A stretch of DNA of 64,000 nt from Bimuria novae-zelandiae CBS 107.79 (lineage: Eukaryota > Ascomycota > Dothideomycetes > Pleosporales > Didymosphaeriaceae), in contig ML976691.1 in assembly GCA_010015655.1 (NCBI GenBank), positions 103,849-167,848 on the forward strand. Direction: 5' to 3'. Numbering within the stretch: position 1 is the stretch's first letter; the number at the start of each line of letters is the position of its first letter. The position numbers and the translations under genes are program-made. Shown here piece by piece: positions 840 to 63,228 of this stretch. The notes beneath the pieces were generated by a model. The model saw only the letters and a program-made list of their open reading frames with translations, did not search any database and had not been told where the DNA came from.

Positions 840-1485
840 AGCTGATGCACGCCGTTAGCTGGTGCACGGCTTTTTACTAAGAAAATTAAGAAAAATACAA
901 AAGTTTAAAGTAATGTAACTTTTTAACTACTAATTCTTTTTTAAAAAAAAATTTTATTAAAATTATAAAGATAGATTTTATTTATAATTCTAAAATTTTC
1001 GTTTCTTAGTAATAATTAAATTTATAAAAAAAGTAAAAAAGTATAAAATTTTAGATATAAACTAAGCTATTTAAATCGGTTTTTATATTAAACTTTTCTT
1101 ATATAAAGGTCTATTTAGAGAGATAACCTATATACTTTAAAATATTCTTTTAGGAAAAAAAAACTTTATGTGATTTTTTAAATATTATATTAATATCAAA
1201 GTTTTAATATAAGAAGTGTTTTAAATAGCTTAGTTTATACATAAAAATTTTTTATTTTTTTATTTTAAAAACTTAAAATTTTATACTTTTATACTTTTTT
1301 ACTTTTTTTATTATTGTTAAGAAACTAAAACTTTAGAATTATAAATAAAATCTATCTCTATAACTCTGGTAAAGAAAGTTTTTAAAAAGAATTAGTAAGT
1401 AAAAAGTTATATTACTTTAAACTTTTATAATTTTCTTCATTTTCTTAGTAAAAAGCCATGCACCAGCTGACGGCGTGCATCAGCT
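840..1485. repeat. foldback/MITE-like element with about 250-bp inverted arms
   Basis: The left end reads AGCTGATGCACGCCGTTAGC and the right end, reverse-complemented, reads AGCTGATGCACGCCGTCAGC. The match continues through CTGGTGCAYGGCTTTTTACT and on into AT-rich sequence. TATAAACTAAGC at 1056-1067 pairs with 1228-1239. The right arm carries roughly 30 bp more than the left, and similarity fades in the centre (about 1096-1200). The outer 40 bp are GC-balanced and nearly identical between arms; the inner parts are TA-rich. No coding capacity is seen. No target-site duplication is obvious. This fits a non-autonomous foldback or MITE element; which transposase would mobilise it is unknown. Confidence 0.8.
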
Positions 1486-2058
1486 GCCAAAACAGGATAC
1501 CCCGCAGTGGGGCAGGAGGAAGGTGCATGGGGCTAAACTCGTGCCTGCTCACTACACTGACCAAATTATGTTATTTGCAAAACGAACATCTAAGCATCGA
1601 ACTTCGGCCATTCAGAACTGAGCTTCCAAAAGCTAGATTCGATCTAGAGTTTTAAAAGACCTTCACTCATGTAGGCTGGTGGCTCACTATATACGAGCAT
1701 TTTCGTATGTAGGTATTGACGGCATTGCCTGGAATTGCTCCGTCCAAACTTGTTTTCACGAGCTATACATACACTCTTTGCAAAAGATTGTACCATGGAC
1801 TGGGGGCCTTTACCGGGCGTATTCGTGACTCACCACCTCATGTCACGGGAATATAAGAGGTCGCCAACGCACCTACGAAGCGAGCTATCACATATTCCAA
1901 GACACAAATAATCAACACACACGTGCGCCTCCCTGGGGTACAAAAAGTCGACGAACACAAGGCCACTTACATCCCCAAATCGCGAACTCATCTTCGCACT
2001 CGAAAAAGTGCCCGGAACAGAACAGACACGCGCTCAGAATAAATCTGAAAGCTTCGCA
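1486..2058. other. intergenic region upstream of the ankyrin gene
   Basis: No convincing gene. A 65-codon frame begins inside the right arm of the foldback element and has no recognisable product. The stretch at about 1860-2058 probably holds the promoter and leader of the ankyrin-repeat gene; no clear TATA box is seen. Confidence 0.4.
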
Positions 2059-2892
2059 ATGGGCCTGCCAAAGTTACCAGCAGCAGTTGCCGCTACCATC
2101 GCATCGGGGGATCTTACCCGATTCAAAGAGCCCTATCAACCCAACAGCATGGCGCTGGAGGAAATCGCCAGCCAGGTTACCCAACACGGGCAGCCCCGCA
2201 TCGTGCAATGGTGCTGCGACCAAGGCTTCCGGCCTCCCAGGGAGTCTCTCAACAGTGAATTCTTCAGCTCCGCCGTGGTAGGGGCATCCCCGGCTGTCTT
2301 CCAGGTCCTGGTTGACCACGGCTTTGATCTCAACGCCCACGAAAGCGAGGCTTGCAGCGACGCACTAGCTTGCGCCGTCATGAGCGGCGAGTATGAATTT
2401 GCAAAGTGGCTGCTTGAGCACGGGGATCGAGCCACACCGCATGATCCGTATCACGGGCCCAGTGCTATCTCCTGGACAATCCGTGGCGACAGTGCTGACC
2501 AGGAAATGCTCAAGTTACTGCTTGACCACGGACACGATTTGGAACGCTCCGGTGCCGGGGTGGTGGCTGCGTATGAGGAGAATGTGGAGGCGCTGAGACT
2601 GCTCCTGGATCGCGGGCTCAACATCGACGACCGCGATATAGCTTGGTATTCCTACGATGGGGATAGCGATGAGTCGCACTAATGGGAAGGCACGGCGCTT
2701 TACTACGCTTGTAGGCGGGGAAACGTGGAGTGCGTCAAACTGTTGCTGCAGCGAGGCGCCGATCCGCTAGCTACAGACGTCAGAGGGACATCTTGCCTGG
2801 ATATCGCGAGACGGCGTGGCCATGAAGACGTTGTGAGGCTTTTGGAAGACAGCGGGTTGGTGAATACAGCCAACGAAGGTCAGTCACTTTAG
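2059..2892 (+). pseudogene. ankyrin-repeat protein interrupted by one in-frame TAA
   Basis: The frame runs from the ATG at 2059 to TAA at 2680-2682, then continues in the same frame without further stops to TAG at 2890-2892, giving 277 codons in all. Ankyrin repeats occur on both sides of the stop: before it repeats with SAISWTIRGD and EMLKLLLDHGHDL, after it TALYYACRRGNVECVKLLL, then SCLDIARRRGHEDVVRLL. The stop therefore cuts off the last one to two repeats. It reads CAC TAA TGG, so one C-to-T change of CAA (a CpA site, the RIP target) would explain it. Ankyrin proteins mediate protein contacts; no catalytic domain is present. It may be a recent pseudogene, a shorter functional protein (207 aa) or a strain-specific null allele. 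Confidence 0.75.
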
Positions 2893-3645
2893 GCTTCATC
2901 AAACAATCATTCTCCTCCTAAATCTCTCAAGGGCAGCAAGTGAGCCGTAACGTTGTTGATTAATCTACCTATGGTAGTGTTTATCTACACGGTGGAGCGA
3001 GCAGACGCTAAACCTCTATGGGGAAGGCGCGGAGACTCTAAGAACAGGACGTAGTAAAGGTACGGGCTGACAAAATCAAACCGGTCGCCTACCGCACTCC
3101 AAGAGACTGCAATGTACCAAACCCCATTTGTTCCGACCACTAGCCTGCATCAACTACAGGTTTCGAAAATAGGAGAACAGATCCGTAGTTGTGCACCTGA
3201 AATTATAGAGAAGCCTGAGGGGCCAAAATAGGAAGGTTCCAAAGCCTTCAGCGTTGATGTTGGCCGCCACTATTATCCAATTCATTTTGCCTGGTCGCCT
3301 CTCTGTCGTCACCGAGCTCTGCAAGCGTACTTTTAGAAAAAGCCTCCATCGTCCATTTTAATTAATTCCTTATGAATTAAAGACCTTGCTAGGGGGGAGA
3401 GGGGTTGCGGGCGAGGTAGTGCAATCTATTGGCAAGGGGTTTGAAAACTTAATCGCTCATTGAACGCTTAGGTAGCTACTTGCCGAAAAAGCTTCGAGTT
3501 GTCTCTCGTGCATCTAAAGTAGATTGTTATCCTAATATTATTGCTTGATCGACTTGTTCTTTTTCCATGTACTTTAAGTATGTGTAAGTCAGACCTGTCC
3601 TCTAGCAACCGAATACATCAGGTTGCCACAAACAAGACTAGAAGA
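2893..3645. other. intergenic region, no gene seen
   Basis: This lies between the ankyrin gene and the 3' end of the transporter gene on the other strand. No open frame of note, no transposon ends and no tRNA-like fold were recognised. Composition is ordinary. Confidence 0.4.
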
Positions 3646-19779: not shown

Positions 19780-21427
19780 CACCAGGTGGCGAGCTAATTC
19801 GTGATCGGTGTACGTAAGCAGCACTAGCCATCAACAACAGCCCCTCCATCTACAACAAAACTTCACCCTTACACCAATCACCCAAATCTCGTCCGATTCC
19901 TACGATGAGCAGCTCAATCAACGCGCCGCGAACGCCCGAACGCTCTAAACCTAATATCTAATATACTACGCCTACGAAATCAGCCTACCTACACCGTTGT
20001 AGCCACCGGGCGAATGGCGAGACTATTAACGACGTCAACAAGCTATTTCGAATCTCTAAGGCTATAGGCAAACGTTAGAGGCGTTAATAACGCAAACTAG
20101 GTATAGAGATCGCGCAAAGGCGTACGCGCAAACCTTTAGCTAAGCTTAATAGTAATAAGCTCGGGAGAGCTTTTTAAACGCCTATACAAGTTCTTAAACA
20201 CATGGCAGAGCCTAAGTAGAATCCCTACAGTTAACGCCCGCTTACCTATTAAGCTAAAAAGTATAGCGTTGAGCTCTCTAAGCGTTAGTTATAATATAAC
20301 TTTAGTCAACAACTCGACGCTCACATGTACATAGCGCCCTATAGTAATCCTTTAACAGACGCCAACAAAGCTACGCGCGTACAGTATGGCTAGTAGAATA
20401 AGGATATGCCTATTACAGGTTACTAGGATCAAGTTTTCTTCACTGACGAGGCTTATTTTAACCTACATAAGCGCCTCTAAAAGCCTCGTCAGCTGCGTCG
20501 ACGCGGGCAGCAAAAACGATATAGAAAAGTCACTAATATGCAGCCTCGGAGCGCTCCTAGGGGTTAGGTTTTACACATGTACGCCTGCGTCAACTAGGAC
20601 TTTAAATCAGAGCTCTACTTTTACAACGACGACAAAGAGATGCCTATAGTTATTAAGCCTCCGCCAAAACCTCGCAAAAGGATGTATGAGTCCTCTCAGC
20701 AGTACGAAAAGCGCGTACAAGAATGGGAGGCTCATAAGCCTCCCAAAGTCGACGTAGATCCTTAGGGGAACCATATAACGCAAGCCTACTATACAGAGCA
20801 TATACTGCCTACGTATATTAAGATCCTTAACGACGCGCGCACTCGTAATCCTTATAAATATCCTATTCTATAAGAAGACAATAACCTATTATATAGTATA
20901 AGATCAAAATATAACGTTGCGCGTATATTTAAGATATCTTAAGGAGTGCGGCTCCTTATACACCTAGGGAGGTCACCAGATCTCAATCCTACAGAAGGAT
21001 GCTGGCTCATCCTTAAAGAAAAGGCCAAAAGGCGTCTCCACAAGCCATGTGAAGGTGAGACGCCTTGGGATGGGACTACAAAACACCTCAAGGATATACT
21101 ACGGCAAATATGGGATGAGATCTCTATCAATGAGATCAGGGAGCTTATCGAGGAGATGCCAGATCGCTGCCAAAGGCTCATAGAAACTGGCGGCGAGAAG
21201 ATACGCTCACAACGCTGGTGAATATACTGTAGAGATCCTGAGATCTCAACACCAAATCTGAGCTCTACGCGTCAGATTTAAGCTTTAAAATCAAGTTCAG
21301 CCTCAAATCAAGTCAATATGCGTCAAGAACCTCAGGATCTCGACTTTGTATGGTGATTACTATGGGAGAACAAAATTTGGCGGTTGTGCTTACATAAACC
21401 GATCACGAATTAGCTCGCCACCTGGTG
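19780..21427 (+). mobile_element. Tc1/mariner-type transposon with 41-bp terminal inverted repeats
   Basis: The left end CACCAGGTGGCGAGCTAATT... (19780-19820) is repeated in inverted orientation at 21387-21427, with only two or so mismatches over 41 bp. The element is 1648 bp, a normal size for this class. A decayed transposase gene lies inside on the plus strand. The sequence left of the element ends in TATACCGT, so the true boundary may be a few bases further out at a TA. The first two-thirds are TA-enriched with many stops while the last 300 bp are not, a mosaic pattern of RIP-like mutation. Confidence 0.9.
19905..21221 (+). pseudogene. Tc1/mariner transposase, RIP-damaged
   Basis: The reading begins MSSSINAPRTPERSKP and reaches the stop at 21219-21221 with many TAG/TAA interruptions. 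Recognisable catalytic stretches are FFTDEAYFNLHKR around 20430-20470 (first Asp), EDNN around 20876 (second acidic position, next to a TAA), and HLGRSPDLNPTEGCWLILKE around 20960-21020 (third acidic residue of the D34D/E type). The last 92 codons (20946-21221) are open. Such enzymes cut and paste the element at TA dinucleotides. This copy cannot encode a full protein. Confidence 0.85.
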
Positions 21428-23509
21428 CCGTGTCTCGGCAGTCAGTGCGCAACATCACTCAATGCGCAACCCCGCGTGATAGCGCACCTACTTTGACGCG
21501 CCATAACTCTACTAATATAGATTTAATTAACGCCGCGATAGTAGTAGTCAAATTATAAAAGTAAAAAAAAAATTTATTATATAATAAAATTATAAAATAA
21601 TTTAGCGTTATATATTTTACGTTAATATATAAGTACGAACGTATTACGTAGGCGCGTATAATTATAAATACTACGCGCTATATACTTAGCCTATAATAAG
21701 AAAAGTAGCTCCTATAATATATTAAACGCTTTACTAAACATAGCCTTTCTTTTATACAGTAAATAATATAAAACTTTGCATCATGTATTACTTAAAAAAT
21801 ATAAGTATATTTTAAGTTAATTGCCTTATTAAGCGTAATAGCAACGCCTTAATATTACGCTAAATAATTAAAATTAATAGTAATTACTATAACGCTAATT
21901 TAGAGGCAAAATATAAGCTCTACTTTAAGCTTTTATATAATAAAATCGCGAAGTATAGTATAGAGCCTTATTACTACTATAATATAGTTTAAAAAGGATT
22001 TTTAATAGGCCTCTATATAAGAGTCGCTAAGTAAGGTAATCTATATAGGATAATAGTTATAAGTAGACCTTAATTAGTACATATATATACGCTAATAAAT
22101 TTATTATTAATTTATTATTAATTTATTAATTTAATGCTAGGAGCCTATGATTAAGCTAAAAAAAATTAATCTTTAATATTATAAAGTCTTTATTACCTTA
22201 TCTCCCTCTAGATAGTTAAATAACGAGATAGGCCTTTAATAGCTTTAATAAGTATTTAATTACTATATAAGAGAGAAAGCTAAAAAGACTTAATAAGTAT
22301 ACTAACTTTTAATCTTTAATAGCTATAGGTTTTACGTTACTATAAATTTTATTAATTATTATAACTAAAATAGGATTTTCCTAATTATATTTCCCTTTTA
22401 TTTAACGCATACGTTATAGCCTTTTAATATATATATATTTAAGTCTCTCTTAGCTACCTACTCTAATAAGCTTAACGCCTATTTATATAAGAGCTAATGA
22501 CTATTAATAGCTACTAAAAGAAACTTCTTTATACTCTTCTAAAGGGCCTAAACTATGTTAGTTACGCTATAATTAATTACTAAGACTTTTAAATATATAA
22601 GTATCTTAATACTAGATTTTATACTTATCTTTAAGTAATTTAATAAGGAACTCTCTTTAGAGGTAAAATTATAAAAAGCTCTATATTAGTACTTAACGTA
22701 TTAAATTAGCGTAAAATAAAGTAACTATTATACTTTATTATTAAAAATATTATAAATAAAGAGTCGCGTAAGCTTAGCTAAATAATATACTTAATTTTTA
22801 TATAAAAGTAACTCTTAAAGCGCGAGAATAAGGGCCTTTAAAAGGCCTTAAAGAATAAAAAATTACGTTAAATAAAGGGTAAGACTCTACCCTTAAAGTA
22901 ACTTAAAAAATAGTATAAAGGAGCTATTTTTTTATTACTTACTTAAGTATAAAGAGTGCACGATTTTTTTAGTTAATAAAAGGCTAAAAGAAATTATTGT
23001 AACTTTAAAAAAGTTAGTGATAAAAGATATAAAAAGTTAATAAATAGCTTAAAATTTATTTATTTTAAGAGAGGCGCGTTACGAGGGTAGTAGTTAAAAA
23101 TATATATACTAAAGAGAGAGCTAATTAGGCTACTAAGTAATATTTTTATTAATAGACTTATAAGGCTTAATAATAACTTTAAGAATATCTTAAAATTACT
23201 AAAAAAGGAAGTTAAAGAGCCTTAAAAGCTATTTATAAAATTATAAAGAGGAAGAAATCTACGCTAGCACTTATATACGTTAATATAATAATATTTATAT
23301 TATTAATGCTATTATCGCGTAGTAGCTATCTAGTTAAAACACTAAGTAGATATTTATAATCTAAGTTACTAGTAATTATCTACAGACCTAAGAAACCTCT
23401 CCACCAAAAAATCTCGTAATAATAGCTTTTATGTAGAGCTCTATAGCCTTATATTGTTGACGTTGCGATCATGTTGGGGTGATGTTGCGCACTGACTGCC
23501 GAGACACGG
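21428..23509 (+). mobile_element. heavily RIP-mutated pogo-type element A with 31-bp inverted ends
   Basis: CCGTGTCTCGGCAGTCAGTG... at 21428-21458 is matched in inverted orientation at 23479-23509 over 31 bp without mismatch. The interior is extremely TA-rich with no open frame of useful length. Just inside the left end, ATAACTCTACTAATATAGAT aligns to ATAACTCCACCAATATGGCT, the start-codon region of the neighbouring element B, and the differences are all C-to-T or G-to-A. So A and B are the same or sister families and A is the more decayed copy. Its left end abuts the mariner element directly. Confidence 0.75.
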
Positions 23510-25521
23510 TAATGCGCATGTTCGCGTAATGCGCACCCTAACAGAAATCCTCCCTATTTTCCACACCACATAACTCCACCAATATGGCTCCGATTGACGA
23601 TGCGCTTGCTGAGATAGAATCGCTGTAACCTAATAAAGGATTCTCCTATAAGAAAATAGCTAGCAAGTACGGTGTATGGCGTTTTACTTTAACACGAAGA
23701 TATAAGACTGGAACATAGTCGCGCGTAGAGAAGGCAATTAACTAATAAAAACTTACTTTATAATAAGAGGTAGAGCTTATTAACTATATAAAAGGGATTA
23801 TAGCGCGCTACTTAGTACCTATAAAAACGATAATATAAAATTTTGCGTTAATAATAGCTAAGGAGCTAGTAAGTAAGAGCTAGGTTACGCGCTTTATTAA
23901 CTAATATAGTATTTATTTAATCTCTTAATAGGTAGCTAGTATATATAGTAATTATTACTAAGCTGATTTAAGGGATAAACATAACTTATATTTTAATATT
24001 TTAGGCAATAAACTAAAGAATATAATATTAAGTCTTATTATACGTATAATATAAATAAAAAGGGCTTCCTTATTAGCGTTATTAGCAAATTAAAATAAGT
24101 GTTTAGTAGACGCATATAGAAGAATAAGGAGGTTATAGTATCTCTTTAAGATAGCTCTTACGAATAGATTACCCTTTTAGTATATATATACGCTAATAGA
24201 TTAGCGTTACTACTAAGCCTTATTTATTAAGCTACTAATAATAGTATATAATTAAGTTAAGTTATAAATATTAAAATAAAAAATTATAGTGTATACGTCT
24301 TCTCTTTACCCTTAGACTAGATAAATAATAATATTAGTCTTACCTAGCTTAAGTAGGTATTTAATTGCTATAGTAAGGTAAAAGCTTAATAATCTTACTA
24401 ATTACTTATCTTTAATAGCTATAGATCTTATATTACTATAGATTTTATTAACTACTATAATAAAAATAAGATTCTCGTAGCTCTACTTCCCTCTTATTTA
24501 ACGTATACATTTTAGCTACTTAATATAGTACTTTTTAAGCCTCTCTTATTAGCCTGCTTAGCTAGGCTTATAACGTACCTCTAAAAAAGCTAAGACCTAG
24601 TTTTAATTAAGAAAAATAATTACTTTATTCTTTTTTAAAAGGCCTAAATAAGCTTCTTTAAGAAGGGGATAATACTTAAGTCTTTTAAAGCTACTAGTAT
24701 ATTACCTTTTAACCTAGAGGTTATACTTAAAAGATTTACCTAAACCACCTAAGATAAGTAGAAATTACGAGAGAGCTTTACTTTAGTACTTAGTAAATTT
24801 AACTAGCGTAGAAACTTCGCTACTTACTTTACTATATTTTAGTTGAAAATAAGCTACTTTACTATAAGATTAATAGGCTTAAAGAGGCTCTATTAGCTAA
24901 GAAAAAGTATAAGAAAAAGGGTAAGCCTCTTAATCTTTAGTAATATTAAGAGTACTATAGGGATATAGTTTTATAGTTACTAAGGAAGGTTAGGGAGACT
25001 TATATACGTTAGTTTATAAAAGAGTATAAGGATAAGTAGTAGTAGCTTTAAAAAGTAAAAATAGTAAAGCTAAAGAAGGTAGCTAAGTTATACAAGGAAA
25101 GATCTAGCAGGAAAAGCGTGCTACGCGAGAGGCAGCTAAGAAGGCGAAGAAGGAGAAGGCTAAAAAGGCAGCTTAGCGCGGTGCCCAGAAGTCTGTCCGC
25201 GACGCAGAAAAAGCTCTATAATTATTCCAAAAGGATAAGAGAAAGGCCTCTCAGCCACCCCTACAGAGCATAAATCGTTAGAAACGTGTTGTTAATACTA
25301 CAGATATTAGGGAGACCTTAGAGGGCGCATTTGCTGCCCTAACTAAATCTAGACGCAGCCGCCGCAATATTATACTTTTAGATAGATTTAAATAGTGTAA
25401 ATTAATTATAAGGACTAATATAATACTCTGCTATAGACTCTTATAATAATAGCAACTATATGTGGCTCTATAGCCTTGTTTATTATAGAGCTGCTATGGT
25501 ATTAGGGTACGCATTACGCGC
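23510..25521 (+). mobile_element. pogo-type element B, RIP-mutated, less decayed at its ends
   Basis: A transposase-like reading starts at the ATG at 23584 (MAPIDDALAEIESL, then a stop, then GFSYKKIASKYGVWRFTLTR), a psq-type helix-turn-helix. Its C-terminal tail near 25100-25390 is basic ([12 protein letters not shown] after frame adjustment), as in Fot1-like enzymes. The sequence near the left end (CGCGTAATGCGCACCCTAA at about 23533-23551) recurs inverted at 25502-25520 with one transition, marking the terminal repeats. The right end runs straight into element C. The middle is TA-rich and stop-filled. Boundaries are approximate. Confidence 0.65.
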
Positions 25522-27158
25522 ACGGACACGTTATAGTGTCTTCTGCACGACGCTCCGAGACCGCCTTACAAGTATATAACTAAAAGTATTTGCCTACACC
25601 TACTAACGCAAGCTGCAGCCTCTTAAGGAGTAGTCTTTTATTTGGTAAATTCTTAACTTTAATTATTATGGATTTCCGCCTTATATTATTAACATATAAC
25701 GTATAGTAAATATTTTATTTACTAATTATAATTAAGATTCTTTATTACTATTATTAGTAAAAACTAGGCGTCGCGCTTTATTAGTAAATAGTTAAAGCTT
25801 TAAATAAAGTAAAATAATTTTTTTAACGCGCAAAATACAAAATTCTTATTAAAATTAGTATATAATTTAAGTTTATATAAGATACGCGCGTTGCGTATAG
25901 CATATTTAATTAGAATATATATAACTTTAATAAGACTAGATTTATAACAGGGGTTACTACTACGTTAAAAGTTATTACTAGCTCTAATACGATTAATTGA
26001 GTAACTATTATTTAGCTAGGTAATTACTAATAAGTAATAATAATTAAGTATATTAATACGTCTAACTAGTATTTACTATTATTTATAATTCTGTCAAGCA
26101 AGCTTTACTAAGCTAGCTAGTATAAAATTTTGTTACTAAACTAGGCTATTACTATTAGTAATAATAAATAAATAATAAATAAGCTTAGCCTTAAGTAAGT
26201 ACATTAATAGATATATAAAGTCGCGTATAGCAGGAGCGTACAGACTACTTATTCTTAATAAGTATAGCAGCCACGCTACGTCAGAGTTTAATCAGTTCTG
26301 TACAGAGAATAATATTATTACTCTCTGTATGCCAGCCTATACGTTACACCTTCTATAGCCACTTGATGTTGGCTGCTTCTCTCCTCTCAAGATAGCTTAT
26401 AGACATGAAGTTGGAGAGCTTGCACGCCAAGGTGTCTTTTATATAGATAAGCAGGAGTTCCTGTGTATCTATCCACGTATACGTTAGTTAGTACTGTTAG
26501 AGAGCAATATCTACGCTGGCTTTAGAGCGATAGGACTTATGCTATATTGTCTAGATCGCGTCCTATCCTGTCTAACCGTTGTCAGAACGCCGTCTCTACT
26601 AGGGACAGTAGCTAATCTAGGAGCAACCTAGATAGCTAAGTCGCTACGTATAACTAATTAGCTTTAGTAGCAGGCTTAACTTATATAAGACCTCCTTTAT
26701 TACTAGTTATAAAGCCTTATAAGTTAAGTAATTACGTAGCTTGTTAAAGGCTATTAGCTTATTATAAACTTAGTAATAATTTTAACTAAAAAGAACTTAA
26801 AGCTACGCGCTACTAATTATTACTAGTAATATAAATATTAAGAATAGTAATAGTATATAGCTTACAAAGGAGTTCTATAGGCTTAGGAAGGTCGTGCGCT
26901 TATTATAAAGGCTAAAAGGAGTGTTTAGGAGGGTAACTAAGCGGAGGCTACTTATGCGCGTATATAAGCTCCGCTAATATATAGTAAATACTATAAATAA
27001 AACTATAATAGGCGTTAATATAGAGCTATTTAATCTATTTTAGTTTAAAATCTTATTAAATTTAATTATGTAGATATAAAGATATTATACGGGAAGCTTT
27101 ACGTGTTTTAGTGGAATAGATAGGATGGTGGTGTTAACAGGATAGTGGTGGAACACGT
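25522..27158 (+). mobile_element. pogo/Fot1-type element C, 5'-truncated and RIP-mutated; sibling of the left-edge element
   Basis: The decayed translation follows the transposase at 1-542: TTLRDRL (about 25537), RKLQPLKE, GFPPYII (about 25670), then NFNKTRFITGV (about 25920) against NFDETGFLMGV. Further on is a well-preserved DDE_1 C-terminal part (SEFNQFCTENNIITLCMPAY, then PLDVGCFSPLK, about 26285-26390). The right end GTGGTGGAACACGT at 27145-27158, followed by TA, is the inverse of the terminus at 624. The 5' end and left terminal repeat are missing next to element B, so B probably inserted into or replaced them. Confidence 0.8.
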
Positions 27159-27160
27159 TA

Positions 27161-28107
27161 ATCTTCTAGCTACTTTGCTAATATACTTTAGATGTATCTC
27201 TACCTACTAGTAGTCTTAATAATAAAAATTACGATATTATAGTTGTGCTTTCCGCTATTATATTAGTACCACTAGAAGCTCCAACAGCAAGACACCCTTA
27301 TTCTACTATAAGTAACTGCATTTAGTGTCGCTTCGGGAGTCCTAAAGCATAGCTAGTTACACTACATTATAGCATATAAGAGTTTTAGGTTGTGCAGTCC
27401 TCGTTAATATACGCTCCAAATTTATCTGTTAAGCAGTGTAGGCTTTTGCGTTTCGGTAAGAGAACTTTGGATGCTTACGTAGTAGCGTATCATACACTTA
27501 GCGGCCTGCATTGTACACCATGCTATGCGCAGCTTAAGGTGTAGCGTATGCTCTAGAAGCTTCCCTCTAAAATTATAAGCATTTAGTGGCCATGTTGCTC
27601 TTGTAAGATTTACGAATCTTCGACGTGGCGAAGAATTATTATGTATATATACATGTACACCCCGTATCCTTGAACGGAGTAGTAGCGTGGATTTCAAAGC
27701 AGGCCCGTGCACAGAAGTAGCGCGCTCTTTCTAGAATAAAGAACTTACGTATACATTGTTTTATTACTGTCGCCAAGGTATCTTTTTCTTCTCTGTACAA
27801 TTTAATTCGGCAAAAGACCGCCTTACCACTTCTGGGCGTAATAATTCCCCATCTACCACTGTTTCCAATACACTACCACCAATGTGGCAGTGCGGCGAAA
27901 ACGGACTGAGATACCACTGTTTCTGACCCATACTCACGCCAATCCGATTGCGTCCTAGTCTAACGTTAGGCCATGAGGACTATGACTAATCTTTCCGATG
28001 CTGTAAGCAGAACTTCGCTGACTCCCCATCAAGAAATAAATCTAGGTGAAGTCCTTGTTTCTATCCAACCTGTGGGCTAAGTCACAGGACGAAAAACCTA
28101 CTAAAAC
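27161..28107. other. intergenic region right of the transposon nest
   Basis: Composition returns gradually from TA-rich to normal. A 96-codon minus frame at 27422-27712 has no recognisable domain. The last 150 bp should hold the promoter of the transcription-factor-like gene. No terminal repeats were seen. Confidence 0.4.
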
Positions 28108-51436: not shown

Positions 51437-51922
51437 TGTCGGCTTACGGGAGGGACACTTTTTGGATACGAAAGTCGGGTCTTGTGCATTTGCATGGGTG
51501 TGGGCATAGCCTGGTGTGTATTCTTTGCATGGCGGCGGATGGGTGGGTGCATTGTTCCTAAATGTAATGTTTACACTCGAGCACGGTGGGTCTGAGGCTG
51601 TTAGACGCATCCATTCGAAGTTTATCGGGTTACAGTAGAGGGTAGTGAGACTAAGTAGGGAAAAGCTTACATTCATCGAAGCTTGGCAGATATTCCCATG
51701 GTGATGTTCGCGCAGCGAGCCATATCTGAAGCGCAATCACGGCGATATCTACCGTGAAGAGACGGTGCATCGGTGGTGATCGAGCGGTGGGAGAGCGTGC
51801 CGAGATGACGTGGGGAAAAGCACCAGAGCGAGCTCGTCGTCATGGTACTGGATGCCCTCGGAACGACAATGGGCGTAGGGCGTAGGTATTATGTCAATTC
51901 TCCTAGCTAGAGACTATCCCCC

Positions 51923-51953
<31 letters not shown>

Positions 51954-52519
51954 AAAAAAAAAAACCTAGCCAGGGGAATGTATCCGGATGCCTGTTTGAT
52001 TGTTCGGGGTTTGTGGGTAGGCCGTGTGCTGTAGCGGGTGCTGTGGGCTGACTAGGCTCGGTCGTGGGGAGTCGTTTGAGTTAGTGTGATGAGAAGGTGT
52101 CGGATGGTGCACAGGTATTGGGAGGTTTTTAGAACGGATAGCGGTTACGGCGGTGTACAGTTAGAAATTAGACTTTCAAAAAGAGGGAAGGGGTTCTAGC
52201 TTTGCATCGGACGATCTGTCATAGTGGTTGGTGACGATACAAGAAAACTTGCAGGTTTTCTGGAGCTCTGTATTCGTACATGAGATGTGGGAAAGCGATG
52301 TTGGCAAAACGGGCCAAATTCTTTCCGCGACGGATTGCCTGCGAGGAAATCTCGTTTCAGGCACATTGGTAAGTGACTAGAGGAATATGGCTTGTTGCTC
52401 ACGTTGTATAGAAATCTTGGCGTTTTTAACGATGATAAATGAGGAACAAGACACTTTGGAAAAATAATACTATAGTTCCTGAAGCCTGGTCATTGCCTGT
52501 AACTACACGCTATAGCTTA
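51437..52519. other. intergenic region between convergent genes
   Basis: 1.1 kb of 3' flanks from the UBA/USP-like gene and the HeLo-PP1 gene. It contains the C/A homopolymer tract described separately. No gene was recognised. Confidence 0.4.
51918..51964. repeat. homopolymer tract of 26 C followed by 21 A
   Basis: An uninterrupted run of C (51918-51943) passes directly into a run of A (51944-51964). Tracts of this size are often mis-sized in assemblies. It lies 0.5 kb from either neighbouring coding end. Confidence 0.95.
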
Positions 52520-54682
52520 TTACAATGCAACAATTCTTGTGGCTACAACACTGGCAGGGCCTTCTTGGATCCCCTTATGTCGCCAGGTTCGATTATCTGA
52601 TTGATAACGTATCAGCAACCAGCAGCTTGCGTAAAGAAACAGCAGGCCTACCTTGAAGAACCACATCAGGTCTTCGGGGATGATCATCATCGCGCCCGAA
52701 TGATCGATTTCGCTACCATACTTCGTAGCGCTGAATAAAGTGACGAGGTGCCGGTCTCCGAGGAACTCATAATCGTCCTCGACGACTTGGTGAGCGCGGA
52801 CGAGAAGACGAAGGTTGTGTTTTTGCAGAAACTGACTGAGAATATCTGCCTCGTACGTACAAGAGGCGCCTTTGACTTTGAGAGACCAGTTGGTTTGGTG
52901 CTTGTCATCGTCGGGCCAGAGTAGGTCATGTAATAACCCGCGAGCTGGAATCTGTTAAAGTCAGCGTGCAATACTCTTGCGCATGTGTCCGGATGCTCCA
53001 CAATCAGGGTGTACAAAGAAGACGTAATACATACATCTATCGGTCTACGGATATTTCTGATTTGTTGGAGAGAGTCCAGATGCGGACTGAATCCTCCATG
53101 GGCAGCGAGTATCTCATCGTTCACCAGGGCAGCTATCGGCATGCAATCGAAAGTCTCTATGAAGCTTTTCCACAATTTAACGCCATACCGGCGCTTGCAC
53201 TCGTCGTAGAAGCCCCATATGCGATTCATAGACGCACATTCGTGGTTCCCACGGAGCAGGAAAAAGGTCTCCGGAAACTTGATTTTGTAGGCGAAGAGTA
53301 GACAGATAGTTTCTAGACTTTGTTTTCCGCGATCTACGTAGTTCCCTAGGAAGAGGTAGTTCGCGGCGGGAGGGTATCCGCCGTACTCGAAATATTGGAG
53401 AAGGTCGTGGTAGTGGCCGTGTATGTCGCCGATAACCTGGATAGAATATTGAGCTACTGAGGGGAAGGTGCGGACTGGCTTACCTTGACGGGTGCGTCGA
53501 GCTCCAAGAGTGGGGGCTGAGACAGGAAAATGTTGCTTGCATCGGTGCATAAGCTGTGGATCTTGGACTCTTCTAATTGGATTTTTTTCCCTGGGGGATG
53601 ACCACGAACAGCAAGGAGGGCGTCGATTACATCGTCTACATACCAGGAAGGAGGTGTCGGATTGGTTGTGCTACTGGTCACAGGAGGAATCGGCTCTTCG
53701 ATCGTGCTGGTCCCACTATATGCAGGTGTCGAGATTCTGTCGTAATAGGAAGCTGTCCGGTTGCTAAGTCCCGTCTCAAAGAGAGTTTTAGAATCGCGTG
53801 CTCGACTAGAGACCGGGGCTTCATGGAGATCGGAGTCTTTGGAAGGTATCCAGTCGTGAATGCGGTCGAACTCGTCCGTAGTAAGAGGCTCCCCAAGAAC
53901 GGAGCCCTCCCTTATCGAGGCACTCGTACTTGCGTGAAACGTTTTGGCTGATTTTAGAAGCCGATCAGTCCTTTGGCTGTGAGATTTCGTGCTTTGCAGA
54001 TCGACTATTCGCGCCTCCAGTGAGGCGAGGTGGCCTTGTATGTTGGCATTGCCCTCATACATCCCACGCTTTATTGACCGGATATCCCCACGGATGTTTG
54101 CACCATTCTCGTGCTGCATACAGCTATGTAGTGTAAGCATCTCCAATCAACAATTATCAGAATGCCGAACGAACATAGATATATTGATTAATCCCATCTG
54201 TAAAGCGAGGGAGTATGTGCGGAGTTCGTCCTTCTTCGACGTAATGCTCTTCATCCGCTTGGCTAGACTCGCCGCGGTCATCGGTCTCCGTAGTATGCCT
54301 TTCTTCAATGCGGTCTCTCTTTGCACTTCACCCAACATGGTTTCCATGCTCTGGAGGGTTGGGACACAATCCTTGATTTGTTGTCCCATGGTCATCCAAA
54401 GATCAGAGGATGGCCCTCGTAGCAAAATCGGATGTTTCGCTAAAGTTGAGCGAATATCCGCAGCAGCTCTCTTGAGCGATTCCGCTTCATTGCAGAGCGC
54501 TTTGACACTATCGTCGACGTCTCGCACATTCTCTGTAATTGTGTACAAGCAGAGACCAATCTGATCAGCGGTCAGCCTTCGATAAACAAAGGCAGCCGGA
54601 CTGATGGAAATGATCTACTCACCTTCGTAGCGGCACCGATGATAGCCAAGCATGATGCAGTGAGAGAAACAGGGTCGGCCAT
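52520..54682 (-). CDS. HeLo-like/STAND N-terminal domain fused to a PP1-type Ser/Thr phosphatase domain
   Basis: Six exons: 54682-54623, 54560-54175, 54123-53484, 53436-53035, 52951-52652 and 52573-52520. They give 613 aa; introns are 62, 51, 47, 83 and 78 bp. Residues 1-149 match the fungal N-terminal domain of STAND proteins ([51 protein letters not shown]). Residues about 150-300 are a polar linker. PP1 homology starts near 308 ([13 protein letters not shown]) and continues GDIHGH (365), [19 protein letters not shown] and [13 protein letters not shown]. GDxVDRG is GNYVDRG, so the bridging Asp is N394; an expected NDRG is KVKG; SAPNYCGE is SATKYGSE. Other metal and His ligands remain. There is no NACHT/NB-ARC or repeat domain. 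Joins 2 and 5 are the least certain. A signalling or incompatibility role is inference. Confidence 0.82.
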
Positions 54683-56345: not shown

Positions 56346-56353
56346 TATAAAAG
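56346..56353 (+). promoter_or_regulatory. TATA box of the amidase-like gene
   Basis: TATAAAAG lies 53 bp upstream of the ATG at 56399, a normal fungal spacing. It is a consensus match only. Confidence 0.6.
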
Positions 56354-56398
56354 ACAGTATGGCAACGCGGGAGCAGTGCAGCGTGCCGCTTGCTCAAG

Positions 56399-58393
56399 AT
56401 GGCCGGTCTCTTGTTCTCCGCGTCTTTGACCGCTCTATTGGCGTCGATCTCCGTATCCGCAGTTCCCATCGTTAAGAGAAACGAGTACACCTTCATTTTG
56501 AACAATCCCTATGGAGACGCCATCTTTGAGCTCGGGAACGTCTCGTATCTCGCAAATACGGTGCATCCCAAGGCCGTTCTTGCAACGGATTGCAAGGCTG
56601 CCACATCATTGCTCCCGATTACAGTAGTGAAGACAAATGAATCGACTATATCCCAGGCCACTTTAGAAGGAATCATTTCATCCTACCTGGAAGCCGACGA
56701 TGTCTTCAGCCACGACTTCTTGGATGGCTTGTACATTTCTTCGACAGTAAGGTCATCGCTGGACGCATCTGCAGTGGAATACCTCGGATCGTTCAGCACC
56801 AGCTTCATCTTCGTGGACGACTCGATTTCCGGAGATGGGCCTTTCTCGAAGATCTCAATAAAATCTTCTGCCGACATGCCTGCGGGACCCTACCTAGCGT
56901 CTATTGAGGAGGGGTCGGTCAGCTTGGCAACTGTTTACCGGCTGTGTCCGGATACGTACCGAACGTTTCTATTTGGTGCATACAATACCAACGATGGCGA
57001 ACAGAACCACTCACCTCTTGGTGTCTTCTTGCCGAAGTTTTGGGATCCTATGATTCCGTAAGTCTGACAACCATTTGAACTTTCAATCTCGCTGACTCTG
57101 CTCAAGTGTGCCTCGTGTATATACTATTGGGGAGACGATAGACCACTTGCGGGCGAACGTGTTGCCATCAAAGATTTGTACGATGTTAAGGGCCTCCAAA
57201 CCTCCGGCGGAAGCCAGGCTTGGGTCTACATCACGCCGATTGCCAATGGAACCGCGCCTTCGGTTCAACAGATCTTCGACCTTGGAGGTGTCGTAGTAGG
57301 AAAGCAAAAGCTTGCCCAGTTCGCATCAGGTGCAAACCCCTGGGAGTGGCAGGATGAGCACTACCCGTTCAATCCCAGGGGTGATGGATGGCTCACCTGT
57401 TCTGCATCTTCTTTTGGCGGAGGCTGCTCGATCGCTGCATATGACTGGCTTGACTACGCCATAGGAAGCGACACCGGATCATCAATGAGGAGACCAGCTG
57501 CGGTATCCGGCACTTACTGCCAGCGTCCAAGTCAGGGCATGATTTCTCTTGAACGGGTTCTGCCTCTTGGAGGTGCCAGTGACACGGCTGGCGTATTTTC
57601 ACGCGACCCTTACAAGTGGATCAAGTTCGCAAAGAACTGGTACTCGCCCTCCCTTCATCAGGATGCTTCCATCACAGGTCTGTCACCTCTTTAAGTCCCT
57701 GACAATTATCTTTTTCCCAAGACCATCCTGTATCCCACCGACTATCTACCCTTGAACAACTCAGCCGCAGAGCCCATCCTTCAAGACTTCATTGCGAATA
57801 TGTCAAGAATCCTCAACATGACGGTGAAGGAGTTCAACTTTACTGCAACTGTTCAAAACTGGACTGATCCTCTGGCTTCCAATCTCACCACGTTGACCGC
57901 GTCGACTTCGGTTATCAACACGTGGTCCACATGGGAGGTAATTGGAAGGTCTCTCACTACTGCCTGGGTCGCTCTGTTCGACGGACGCTTCCCCCCGATC
58001 GATCCCGCACGCCGCCCTGGCTGGCGCGCCTTCAACGAATCCCGCACAAACCAGACAGCATACAACGCAGCCCTGGTCACTAAAAACATCGGAGTCGAAT
58101 GGTACGAGCGCGAACTGAACGAGTCCCCAGACGCTTCGTACCTTGCTGCTCTGCCCAAGGGTACAAAGATCACTGGTGCAAACATCTGCCCAATATTCGG
58201 CTGCGCTGATTTCACTGTTCCAATCGGACAGGTCCCGTATCAATCCAATATTACGTTCCACGAAGAGATGGTTCCTGTCACTATCAACATGGTGGTGAAG
58301 CGGGGTTGTGATTTTATGATCTATAATATGATAGAAAAGCTGGTGGATGAGGGCGTGTTGAAGACAGTGAAGACGGGGAGGACAGCATACTGA
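56399..58393 (+). pseudogene. amidase-signature enzyme with fungal N-terminal domain, two lesions
   Basis: The first exon, 56399-57057, starts with a signal peptide (MAGLLFSASLTALLASISVS) and an N-terminal domain of the kind preceding some fungal amidases. A GTAAGT...CTCAAG intron (57058-57106) follows. The amidase signature is clear: [17 protein letters not shown] (catalytic Lys), [21 protein letters not shown] (cis-Ser region) and [12 protein letters not shown] (nucleophile Ser; GSDTGGS is usual). One base appears missing near 57112, because the exon leaves the splice in a frame offset from [24 protein letters not shown] at 57692-57694 interrupts GLSPL...[13 protein letters not shown], which continues in the same frame to 58393. 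CAA to TAA explains that stop. Relatives hydrolyse amides; this allele should be truncated. A sequencing error at the frameshift is possible. Confidence 0.75.
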
Positions 58394-60554: not shown

Positions 60555-63228
60555 TCATCTGGCGAAAACTTTAACCACGCCGTCGCCACCCGCTGAGACG
60601 ACCAGGCGGCCGTCCTGGCTCCAGACGACACTGCAGACACCCTCACCACGCATGATGCGGTGCGCGGTGATCTCCTGTGTGCATATGCGCTTATCGAGAG
60701 ACCAGAAGCGAATAGAGGCATCGTGACCCGCCGAGACGGCTTCATGGCCGTCTTTGCTGATGGCGAGGGAGGAAATGGCGGCCGGGTGAGCAAGCATGTT
60801 GTAGGTGCATTGGCCTTTGCCCAGATTAGTCAACAGAATATGAACTGAGTGAGAGGAGCAAAGCTTACCAGAGTTGGCATCGTAGAATCTGATGAACTGG
60901 TCTTCATGCCCACTGATGATGACGCCCTCCACACCGCCAGTATCGCCTGATCCCGTCGGGCCGTGAACAGCGCCCTCTTCGTCAGACCCTCGAGTGGCAT
61001 CTTGCGACGACGTGCCTTCTATGCTCTGTGAAGTGGTCACTACGGACGTGATGCCCGTCGCTGGAGTGCCGTCATATGTTTCAGCGCTAGCCATTCCAAT
61101 CAGCTCCTCGCCAGTCCGTGTGTCATACACAAGGATCGAAGCATCAGTGAATGACACCACAAAATTCTCTCCATTTGGGGAAAGAGGACTGATGCATGTA
61201 GGTGAGGGATGTGTGGCTCGCTCGATGGTGTGTACTAGCATGTAGTGGAACGGTGTCGACGTCGCGATGCTCGGTTGTGGAGACGAAGGGTAGTTAGATC
61301 CTGACGTTACCGAATGCCTCCGGCTTCCACCAACACCGCGGCGCGAGCCGGTCTGGGGCGACACCGGCTGCGGGGGCGCGCTTACAGCCCAAATCTTTAT
61401 GGTACCATCTGCAGAGCCTGATGCGAGCAATACACGGTCAGGACCACCGTAGTTGCTACAATCTGCACCGAACACCGAATGACATGTTGCCGGTAGTACG
61501 CATACAGTCCAGACAGCATCTGTATGCCCATCCAGGGTGGCTTTGGGGTCCACACGACCTCTCTCCCATACACGGATTGTAGCGTCTTGGCCTCCAGAGA
61601 ATATCCAGCCGTCGCCAGACACTCTGCCACCTGTCGCGAAGGAGGCCGTTGATGGACAAGCCGCCAGAGATGTTACTATCCCGTCATGACCGCGATGTGA
61701 CCAATAAGGAGATATGTCCAGATCGGTATTCATGCTATGCTGGTTGGCATAGCTTGCCGGAATGATCCACCTCTTGATCATGCCATCATCGCCCGCAGTA
61801 CAGATTTCCGGTTCGGCGGGACTACCACCTCCGGTGAAAATGACCGATCGTACAACGTCGAGGTGGCCGCGAAGAGCGAATCTTACTTTGAAGTTCTGCG
61901 GATCAGATCGTGCTACTTGACTGGACGCTTCATCAACTTTGCCTTGGCTCACCCGCCTCCTGTGCTGTTCGGCGCTGGTCTTTCGCTTCTGGCGTGGAGG
62001 CGAAGTTGCTGGGATGCTATCGGCTTTGGGGAAAGGCTCGTCTGGTCTTCCCGAGAGCGGCATCTCCGTAGTATTGTCGGCGGACGACTCTGGCGGGTCA
62101 AAATCCCAGTCTTCACGATTGTCTGCCGGCACCTGAGTAATCCCCAGACTGTGCTCTTCCGGGGTGGGAATTGGATTACCATCCTTGTCAAAGGTATAGA
62201 TGAGCTGTTCCACGACTTCGTCGGGCCGTGCAGAATCAGTGTTCTGAGGTGGCGGCTCTTGCTGCTGCGGTTGAGTAAATGGAGAAGGATCTGCATGAGT
62301 TGGCTGGTGTATCGGACCCGGGGGGTCCCGCGTCATTGGCGTGGATTGCGGATGAGGAGTTGATGATGAAAAGGGAAGGATTTCTACGGATGTAGGAATG
62401 ACGGGCGGTGCGTGGTTGGGAAGTGTTCTGCCAGGCGCGGTTGGAAGCTGCGTCGGCAATCCCTGGTGACGATATAAATCATCTAGGGAAGGCTGGCCGT
62501 TGTTCAGGAAACCAGAGCTGTTGTCTAATCCATGGTGTCCTGGATGTGGGGCTGGCTGAGCAGGCGGAGTCAAAAGATAGGTGATCTCCTCCACGCATTT
62601 TGTGAGGAACATTTTGGATTGCTCTCGGATGCTGTCTCGCTCTCGCTCGGCTTCGGCGTGTTCTGCGGACTCCGGGTCGACGTCGAGGAATGAATTATGG
62701 TGCTTAGTTTGAGCTAGATTGCCTTTCGAGTCAGCTTGGTTACGAGAGAGGGAGCAGCACAATGAGGAGTGTTTGCGCACGCTTAACAGGTCCCATACCG
62801 CTCTTAGGGTCTACTTTCGCCTTGCCCTTCTTTTCATCTGCTGTTGACTGGGCATTCGCGCCCGCGCCGCCGGCCTTGTTCTTCGCCCGCTCGTTCGTCA
62901 AGGCTTGCTCGAGCATGCGAATGTGCTTGTTCAGTTGGTCGTTCAGCTTCTTCGCACTCCGGACCTCGCCCTCCTGCTTTGCGATTTTCGCCTTCATTTC
63001 TGCGCGCTCAATGTCCCAGGCGTTTCGCGCACGCTCGTGACTGTGCCATTCCAGCTGCAGAAAGCGCATAACCCCTGTGCTCGCTGTCAGTACATTTCTT
63101 GCCAAACAACAACCATAGCTGCGGTATCCTTTACCCTGCAGCGTGTACTCGGTCCCTGTCGGCGCATTGCCATCGCCTGTGCCAGCGGCGCCGCCCGCAT
63201 TCATGGCCGAGGGCGACTGCCATGCCAT
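60555..63228 (-). CDS. striatin-family STRIPAK scaffold (Pro11/StrA-like)
   Basis: Exons 63228-63135, 63074-62799, 62722-60869 and 60814-60555 give 827 aa. Introns are 60, 76 and 54 bp; the last is a multiple of three and has a TTGACTAAT branch site. The striatin N-terminal domain is clear: [20 protein letters not shown], then a coiled coil of about 55 residues ([20 protein letters not shown]). A Pro-rich linker leads to WD40 repeats from about residue 430 to the end ([66 protein letters not shown]). Striatin is the PP2A-binding scaffold of STRIPAK, which in filamentous fungi controls hyphal fusion and sexual development. Frame and splice phases agree throughout. Confidence 0.93.

Follow-up and report, generated by a model that had tools for sequence, protein, structure and literature searches.

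A gene of Bimuria novae-zelandiae that joins a HeLo-like N-terminal domain to a predicted pseudophosphatase derived from PP1

What might a fungus do with a PP1 phosphatase domain placed behind a HeLo-like N-terminal domain, and is such a combination the product of a single gene? The question is posed by a locus within a window of 64,000 nucleotides (the whole stretch of DNA analyzed; contig ML976691.1, positions 103,849 to 167,848) of Bimuria novae-zelandiae CBS 107.79. An earlier note had assigned one fused gene to positions 52520..54682 of the window. The ATG is located at 54682, as proposed, and the stop codon ends at 52543, a little short of the other limit. The gene is read from the minus strand and comprises six exons encoding 613 residues, separated by five GT-AG introns of 62, 51, 47, 83 and 55 nt, four of which have lengths that are not multiples of three; the 51-nt intron 2 contains an in-frame stop. 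The start codon assignment is firm because the frame is closed by a TAA that begins 12 nt upstream of the ATG. Exon 1 (54623..54682, residues 1-20) contains the start codon and the first part of the HeLo-like domain, and exon 2 (54175..54560, residues 21-148, with codon 149 split) the rest of this PF17111 domain, predicted at low confidence to be entirely helical. Exon 3 (53484..54123, residues 149-362) encodes the end of the PF17111 match, three predicted helices (residues ~152-220), a low-confidence linker and STPPase_N. The two halves of the Metallophos domain are encoded by exon 4 (53035..53436, residues 363-496) and exon 5 (52652..52951, residues 497-596), and exon 6 (52543..52596) adds residues 597-613 and the stop. 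Papers are cited below by PMC number.

Since exon 3 carries the end of PF17111, the linker and STPPase_N within one open frame, the join of the two domains is independent of the choice of introns. There are no Met codons between residues 170 and 432. In a codon-usage score trained on 1944 codons from Pfam-supported ORFs of the window, the frame of the fusion gene exceeded the five other frames in all four segments, the linker included, with the smallest margin in residues 1-148 (0.028 vs -0.021). The bridging exon, the lack of Met from 171 to 431 and the coding signal in the linker bear out the single fused gene, and at the level of the gene model the fusion of the HeLo-like domain with PP1 is confirmed. 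Intron 2 (54124-54174, minus strand) starts with GTTCGT, an uncommon intron donor; its retention, with the in-frame stop, would yield a HeLo-like domain without the PP1 part.

The N-terminal domain was identified by Pfam as PF17111 (PigL_N, the same as Helo_like_N) at residues 2-208, with 28.0 bits versus a cut-off of 27.2; the match spans positions 1-194 of the 209-position profile and, at +0.8 bits, is marginal. It nevertheless agrees with the HeLo-like assignment made earlier, and the claim that NACHT, NB-ARC and repeats are missing also held, as no Pfam match to these families was obtained in the fusion protein up to E = 1. NCBIfam gave three matches, none close to its cut-off. A single-sequence model of exon 2, which is a weak model (mean pLDDT 63.7), contains three long helices and a short one spanning four residues; it had no structural match in the PDB at E<=0.001, and for residues 1-192 the best E against the PDB was 0.4. 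Four of the 12 PF17111 matches listed for the genome lie directly upstream of a same-strand NACHT match (C4, C11, C18 and C100), the one on C18 being counted although it is under the Pfam curated cut-off; the domain had indeed been described as typical of NLR/STAND proteins. Ten ORFs near PF17111 matches were scanned. The downstream ones at L046 and L047 match NPHP3_N, with a NACHT match at L047 just under its cut-off, and one at L051 is a WD40 array. Because NACHT, NPHP3_N and WD40 ORFs adjoin PF17111 matches, the family is a receptor N-terminus in this genome. The sole PF17111 paralogue found with the full protein (L050, 1107-2303, plus strand; 25% over residues 1-197) is a 399-residue ORF without a NACHT match, and the next ORF, when scanned, had no Pfam match. 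HeLo-like domains are grouped with the four-helix bundles of MLKL-type executioners, and for the largest HeLo-like cluster of that study no good model was obtained (PMC9815663).

Descent of the fusion from an NLR, as a remnant, was considered and rejected. Residues 229-262 are reminiscent of a pre-NACHT linker (WLSxPDPS...). With a pre-NACHT profile made from 7 of the genome's own 32 pre-P-loop segments (40 loci), however, the linker scored only 1.8 bits, a value equalled or exceeded by 32 of 470 scored shuffles of it (500 made).

The PP1 part occupies residues 311-602, with STPPase_N at 311-357 (59.9 bits) and Metallophos at 360-553 (130.2 bits), so that the phosphatase assignment was confirmed by Pfam. 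Contig 84 of the genome (77.4 Mb, 191 contigs) carries a separate, canonical PP1 gene that stands alone (L002); its product and human PP1-gamma share 88.8% identity over 295 residues. All three introns of the stand-alone gene coincide in codon and phase with introns 3, 4 and 5 of the fusion gene; the common sites fall between APIK and ICGD, RPTD and IPDC, and CSFQ and ILKP. A gene on C20, labeled PPZ-like from its long single frame and its identity, is uninterrupted across the region of the PP1 introns. Because the introns coincide with those of the PP1 gene and the PPZ-like gene has none there, the phosphatase domain is, as judged by gene structure, a genomic duplicate of PP1. The fungus's own PP1 is also the nearest relative of the domain, with 62% identity over 292 residues and no gap, followed by the PPZ-like locus with 51% and by six others with 35-43% over the aligned parts.

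The duplicate appears to be old. Only 35% of the third codon positions are identical in the fusion and its own PP1, and the four-fold sites (8 of 46 identical) do not agree above chance and look saturated; dN is 0.29, whereas dS was not computable, NG86 having returned no value. Copies that evolved neutrally in simulation to the same protein identity acquired ~5 stops each, and 1 in 1000 was stop-free. The near-random four-fold sites, the conserved protein and the rarity of stop-free neutral copies indicate that the PP1 part was kept as a protein under long purifying selection. The duplication is not datable to a clade because the PP1-placement tree has weak support (63 and 77) and because, of the 32 residues that distinguish own from human PP1, 10 in the fusion agree with own PP1, 7 with human PP1 and 15 with neither.

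The active site was compared at 12 catalytic positions in human PP1 numbering. Six of them are the metal ligands given in PMC10066265, and six are other catalytic residues. Ten of the 12 are intact in the fusion. The exceptions are N394 (codon AAC, 53341..53343, minus strand), which corresponds to PP1 position 92, an Asp in PP1 and a ligand of both metals, and K523 (codon AAA, 52871..52873, minus strand), which corresponds to position 221, an Arg in PP1. Thus five of the six metal ligands are kept and D92N is the one that changed, while R221K preserves the charge. Both changes had been overlooked in the earlier note, in which the catalytic domain was called complete in length, as indeed it is. 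Asp and Arg occupy positions 92 and 221 in all eight other PPP loci found in the genome, seven of which are also readable at positions 64 and 66, and the PPZ-like gene, a separate locus, has all 12 positions intact. The genome's other PPP domains, together with human PP1, define 53 PPP-invariant columns (data in at least 7 of 9 rows). Ten of these are broken in the fusion, against 0 to 6 in each of the nine comparison sequences when it is left out in turn.

Asp92 of PP1 ligates both metals, both of which are required for activity, and the stability of PP1 needs a metal at M2 (PMC10066265), so that D92N could also cost stability. The same paper reports that PP1 H66K, which is without metal M1, still has normal affinity for inhibitor-3. 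By the metal-ligand test the fusion does not pass as a PP1 enzyme, and what is found, loss of catalytic residues (D92N, R221K) in a PPP fold otherwise kept over 292 gap-free residues, is what characterizes a pseudophosphatase. The protein is predicted to be one and, with loss of catalysis inferred from these replacements, probably does not work as an enzyme. The loss may be partial or recent, since the active site still has 10 of its 12 residues, a number also retained in 81 of 1000 neutral simulations. No paper on D92N in PP1 was found in the literature searched, which covered few subscription papers. The fusion is probably an extra PPP locus beyond the usual set, because eight PPP genes appear in the available portion of the table for Neurospora crassa (PMC3931568) and eight loci were found here in addition to the fusion.

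Replacement of a metal ligand and a phosphate-binding residue, both intact in the eight other PPP loci, weakens the suggestion that the N-terminal domain recruits or localizes a working phosphatase; the other option raised at the time, a decoy, would fit these residues better. The fusion can be read as having the layout of MLKL, in which the place of the pseudokinase is taken by a phosphatase fold. MLKL, plant MLKLs such as Pm13 (PMC12881547, PMC10951266) and fungal HELL-kinase proteins begin with a domain of the HeLo/4HB superfamily, to which the marginal PF17111 match would assign the N-terminus of the fusion. A helical connector follows in these proteins, three helices forming the brace of Pm13 (PMC12881547, PMC10951266); at residues ~152-220 of the fusion three helices are predicted (block pLDDT 67-89 in a weak single-sequence model). 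In both the C-terminal domain stems from a signaling enzyme and an NB domain is missing. In contrast to the MLKL-type proteins, the fusion has a PP1 fold instead of a kinase fold, which sets it apart from the MLKL pseudokinases, and a long low-confidence linker after the helices. Tight MLKL-like coupling is disfavored because residues 240-308, which lead from the helices to the PP1 part, have a pLDDT under 50. The bundle of MLKL is set free when its pseudokinase becomes phosphorylated, and in fungi some HELL domains form part of a kinase or pseudokinase protein (PMC12881547); the word "phosphatase" is absent from the main text of this review. The genome itself contains an ORF with an MLKL-like layout (L053, G000:C5:519500-527000; 1454-3376, minus strand, 640 residues) that matches HeLo with 107.1 bits, DUF7580 with 29.9 bits (cut-off 27) and Pkinase with 20.9 bits, below the cut-off of 31.7. 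Fungal NLRs with HeLo-like N-termini share the PF17111 family with the fusion, upstream of NACHT in this genome, but the fusion has neither NACHT/NB-ARC nor repeats; it would be a variant of the HeLo/MLKL architecture type and is not an NLR.

The MLKL-like order, the HELL-kinase proteins and the HeLo-kinase ORF favor a model in which a PP1-derived pseudophosphatase controls the output of the HeLo-like domain. The model is plausible but tentative, because the linker is long and of low confidence and the PF17111 score is marginal. In this model a copy of the PP1 gene would have been joined to the end of a HeLo-like domain and have become a pseudophosphatase. Its PP1-shaped part would serve as a docking surface, not as an enzyme, and would hold partners of the RVxF type or foreign proteins that attack PP1. 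Its engagement or release would cause the HeLo-like domain to oligomerize at the membrane, which would be the output of a receptor that lacks an NB domain and is built, like MLKL, from a four-helix bundle, connecting helices and a pseudoenzyme. We infer that the protein docks partners, acts at the membrane and is linked to defense or incompatibility, and that it would switch on its HeLo-like domain upon sensing interference with PP1. A more specific version, which is rather doubtful, makes the protein an MLKL-like executioner gated by the pseudophosphatase: the PP1 shape would be a bait for proteins that seize or inhibit PP1, engagement would free a membrane-permeabilizing bundle, and PP1 would be guarded by an NB-free receptor of immunity or allorecognition.

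Decoy logic has a fungal precedent, as kinase-derived decoys have been proposed in NLRs of Sordariales (PMC12258605). In the CHK2-like putative decoy, as in the fusion, a conserved signaling enzyme was duplicated onto an immune-type module; there, however, a kinase was added to a complete tripartite NLR, whereas here a phosphatase stands without an NB domain or repeat. In MLKL-type proteins a helical bundle that acts on membranes is combined with a kinase, dead or living. If the proposed model is true, a version with a dead phosphatase would mean that enzymes of different folds can take the role of the switch and that PP1, an essential hub, is something fungi may guard. PPP-family pseudophosphatases are few. 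They were predicted in kinetoplastids in 2007 (PMC2175518), and PfPPP8 of Plasmodium was presented in 2023 as the first to be experimentally characterized (PMC10317984); a PP1-derived member of this group linked to a HeLo-like domain would be a new combination. The kinetoplastid proteins share with the fusion a PPP domain with changed catalytic residues. They and PfPPP8 belong to other lineages, and the available parts of the two papers do not mention a HeLo domain (PMC10317984, PMC2175518). In the literature searched, with few subscription papers covered, no paper on a HeLo-like/PP1 fusion was found.

What the PP1 part might hold was assessed from docking residues listed in PMC9582199, PMC3387161 and PMC10066265. 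Eight of the nine positions of the hydrophobic RVxF groove are conserved, C291W in the pocket being the exception, as are all four of acidic patch 1. Less is left of the polar contacts made with the basic RVxF residue (1 of 3, with D166N and D242R), of acidic patch 2 (2 of 6) and of the pocket for Lys59 of inhibitor-3 (2 of 4). Own PP1 has the groove complete (9/9); the PPZ-like domain has 9/9 in the groove, 4/4 in patch 1, 1/3 of the polar contacts, 2/6 in patch 2 and 2/4 in the Lys59 pocket. The groove alone is not decisive, since at least 8 of its positions survived in 74 of 1000 neutral runs. This, together with the mixed preservation across the surfaces, makes a changed set of partners more likely than simple mimicry of PP1. 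No RVxF motif occurs in the N-terminal part of the fusion, the single pattern match being KIKF at 413 within the PP1 part. The sequence GILR at residues 108-111 (exon 2) conforms to the SILK pattern for PP1 docking; it is no more than a lead and is absent at that place in all nine of the genome's own PF17111 proteins aligned with the fusion.

An alternative is a PP1 antagonist outside immunity, a pseudophosphatase that soaks up PP1 regulatory subunits in a dominant-negative manner while the HeLo-like part contributes just oligomers or a membrane address. We consider this possible, though unlikely. It accords with the retained groove and with the surroundings of the gene, which include housekeeping-type genes (Pet127 and a WD40 ORF whose striatin match falls short of the cut-off); none of the 45 NACHT matches listed for the genome is on this contig. 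Arguing against it are the eroded polar contacts and acidic patch 2, though these are no more eroded than in the PPZ-like domain, and the recurrence of PF17111 upstream of NACHT in the genome.

It is likewise unlikely, and slightly more so, that the protein remains an active, if altered, phosphatase brought to a membrane by its HeLo-like domain, in the manner of PPZ or PPQ with another N-terminus. The 10 intact catalytic positions, the gap-free alignment with PP1 and the purifying selection would be expected of an enzyme, and yeast PPQ1 shows that a fungal PP1-like protein can have an N-terminal extension of its own (PMC6506691). PPZ, PPQ1 and the fusion all have a PP1-like catalytic domain after a long extension; that of PPQ1 is Ser- and Asn-rich, and a HeLo domain is not mentioned in the available part of the paper (PMC6506691). 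The altered residue, however, binds both metals in PP1 (PMC10066265) and is Asp in all eight other PPP loci found. PfPPP8, in which two Asp of the GDXXDRG motif are replaced by Asn, showed no activity (PMC10317984). Restoration of both Asp did not yield activity (PMC10317984), for which reason PfPPP8 is no proof that the Asp change alone kills. The first Asp of the motif is Asn in both proteins; PfPPP8 has lost both (GNLINRG) and has an altered motif spacing, in contrast to one Asp and Arg221 changed and a PP1-like spacing in the fusion (PMC10317984).

A decaying or mis-assembled gene would account for the active-site losses and is nonetheless very improbable, given a frame of 613 codons intact over six exons, a coding signal in all four segments, a protein conserved at near-random four-fold sites and 292 residues aligned to own PP1 with 0 gaps. 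Two adjacent genes are the least probable of all, because exon 3 is common to both domains and residues 171-431 are without Met.

A second HeLo-like/PP1 fusion was not seen, as a comparison of the candidate loci listed for PF17111, for PF00149 and for the whole protein gave no further locus with both domains; this result is weak because the search, made exon by exon, lists scored candidates only, and it misses the PF17111 domain of the fusion gene itself. No relatives of the fusion protein were found in the viral contigs searched, and no NLR or HET gene among 25 scanned of the 38 window ORFs of at least 190 residues; the latter result, like the lack of listed NACHT matches on the contig, counts against the favored model. 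The HeLo-kinase ORF has a divergent neighbor, a Metallophos ORF of 368 residues (L053, 4027-5133, plus strand, 46.8 bits). Striatins are regulators of PP2A, and the WD40 ORF with the striatin match below the cut-off is located at 60555-62810 (minus strand), ~6 kb from the PP1-like gene. A homopolymer tract, a T run followed by a G run on the minus strand, occupies 51918-51964. At 56351-58393 (plus strand) one frame contains three successive open stretches, the middle one matching Amidase, and the stops that split them are either introns or breaks. The block at 20001-28000 is AT-rich, with a GC content of 0.27-0.39 compared with 0.48-0.59 in most of the remainder of the window, as expected for a mutated repeat island.
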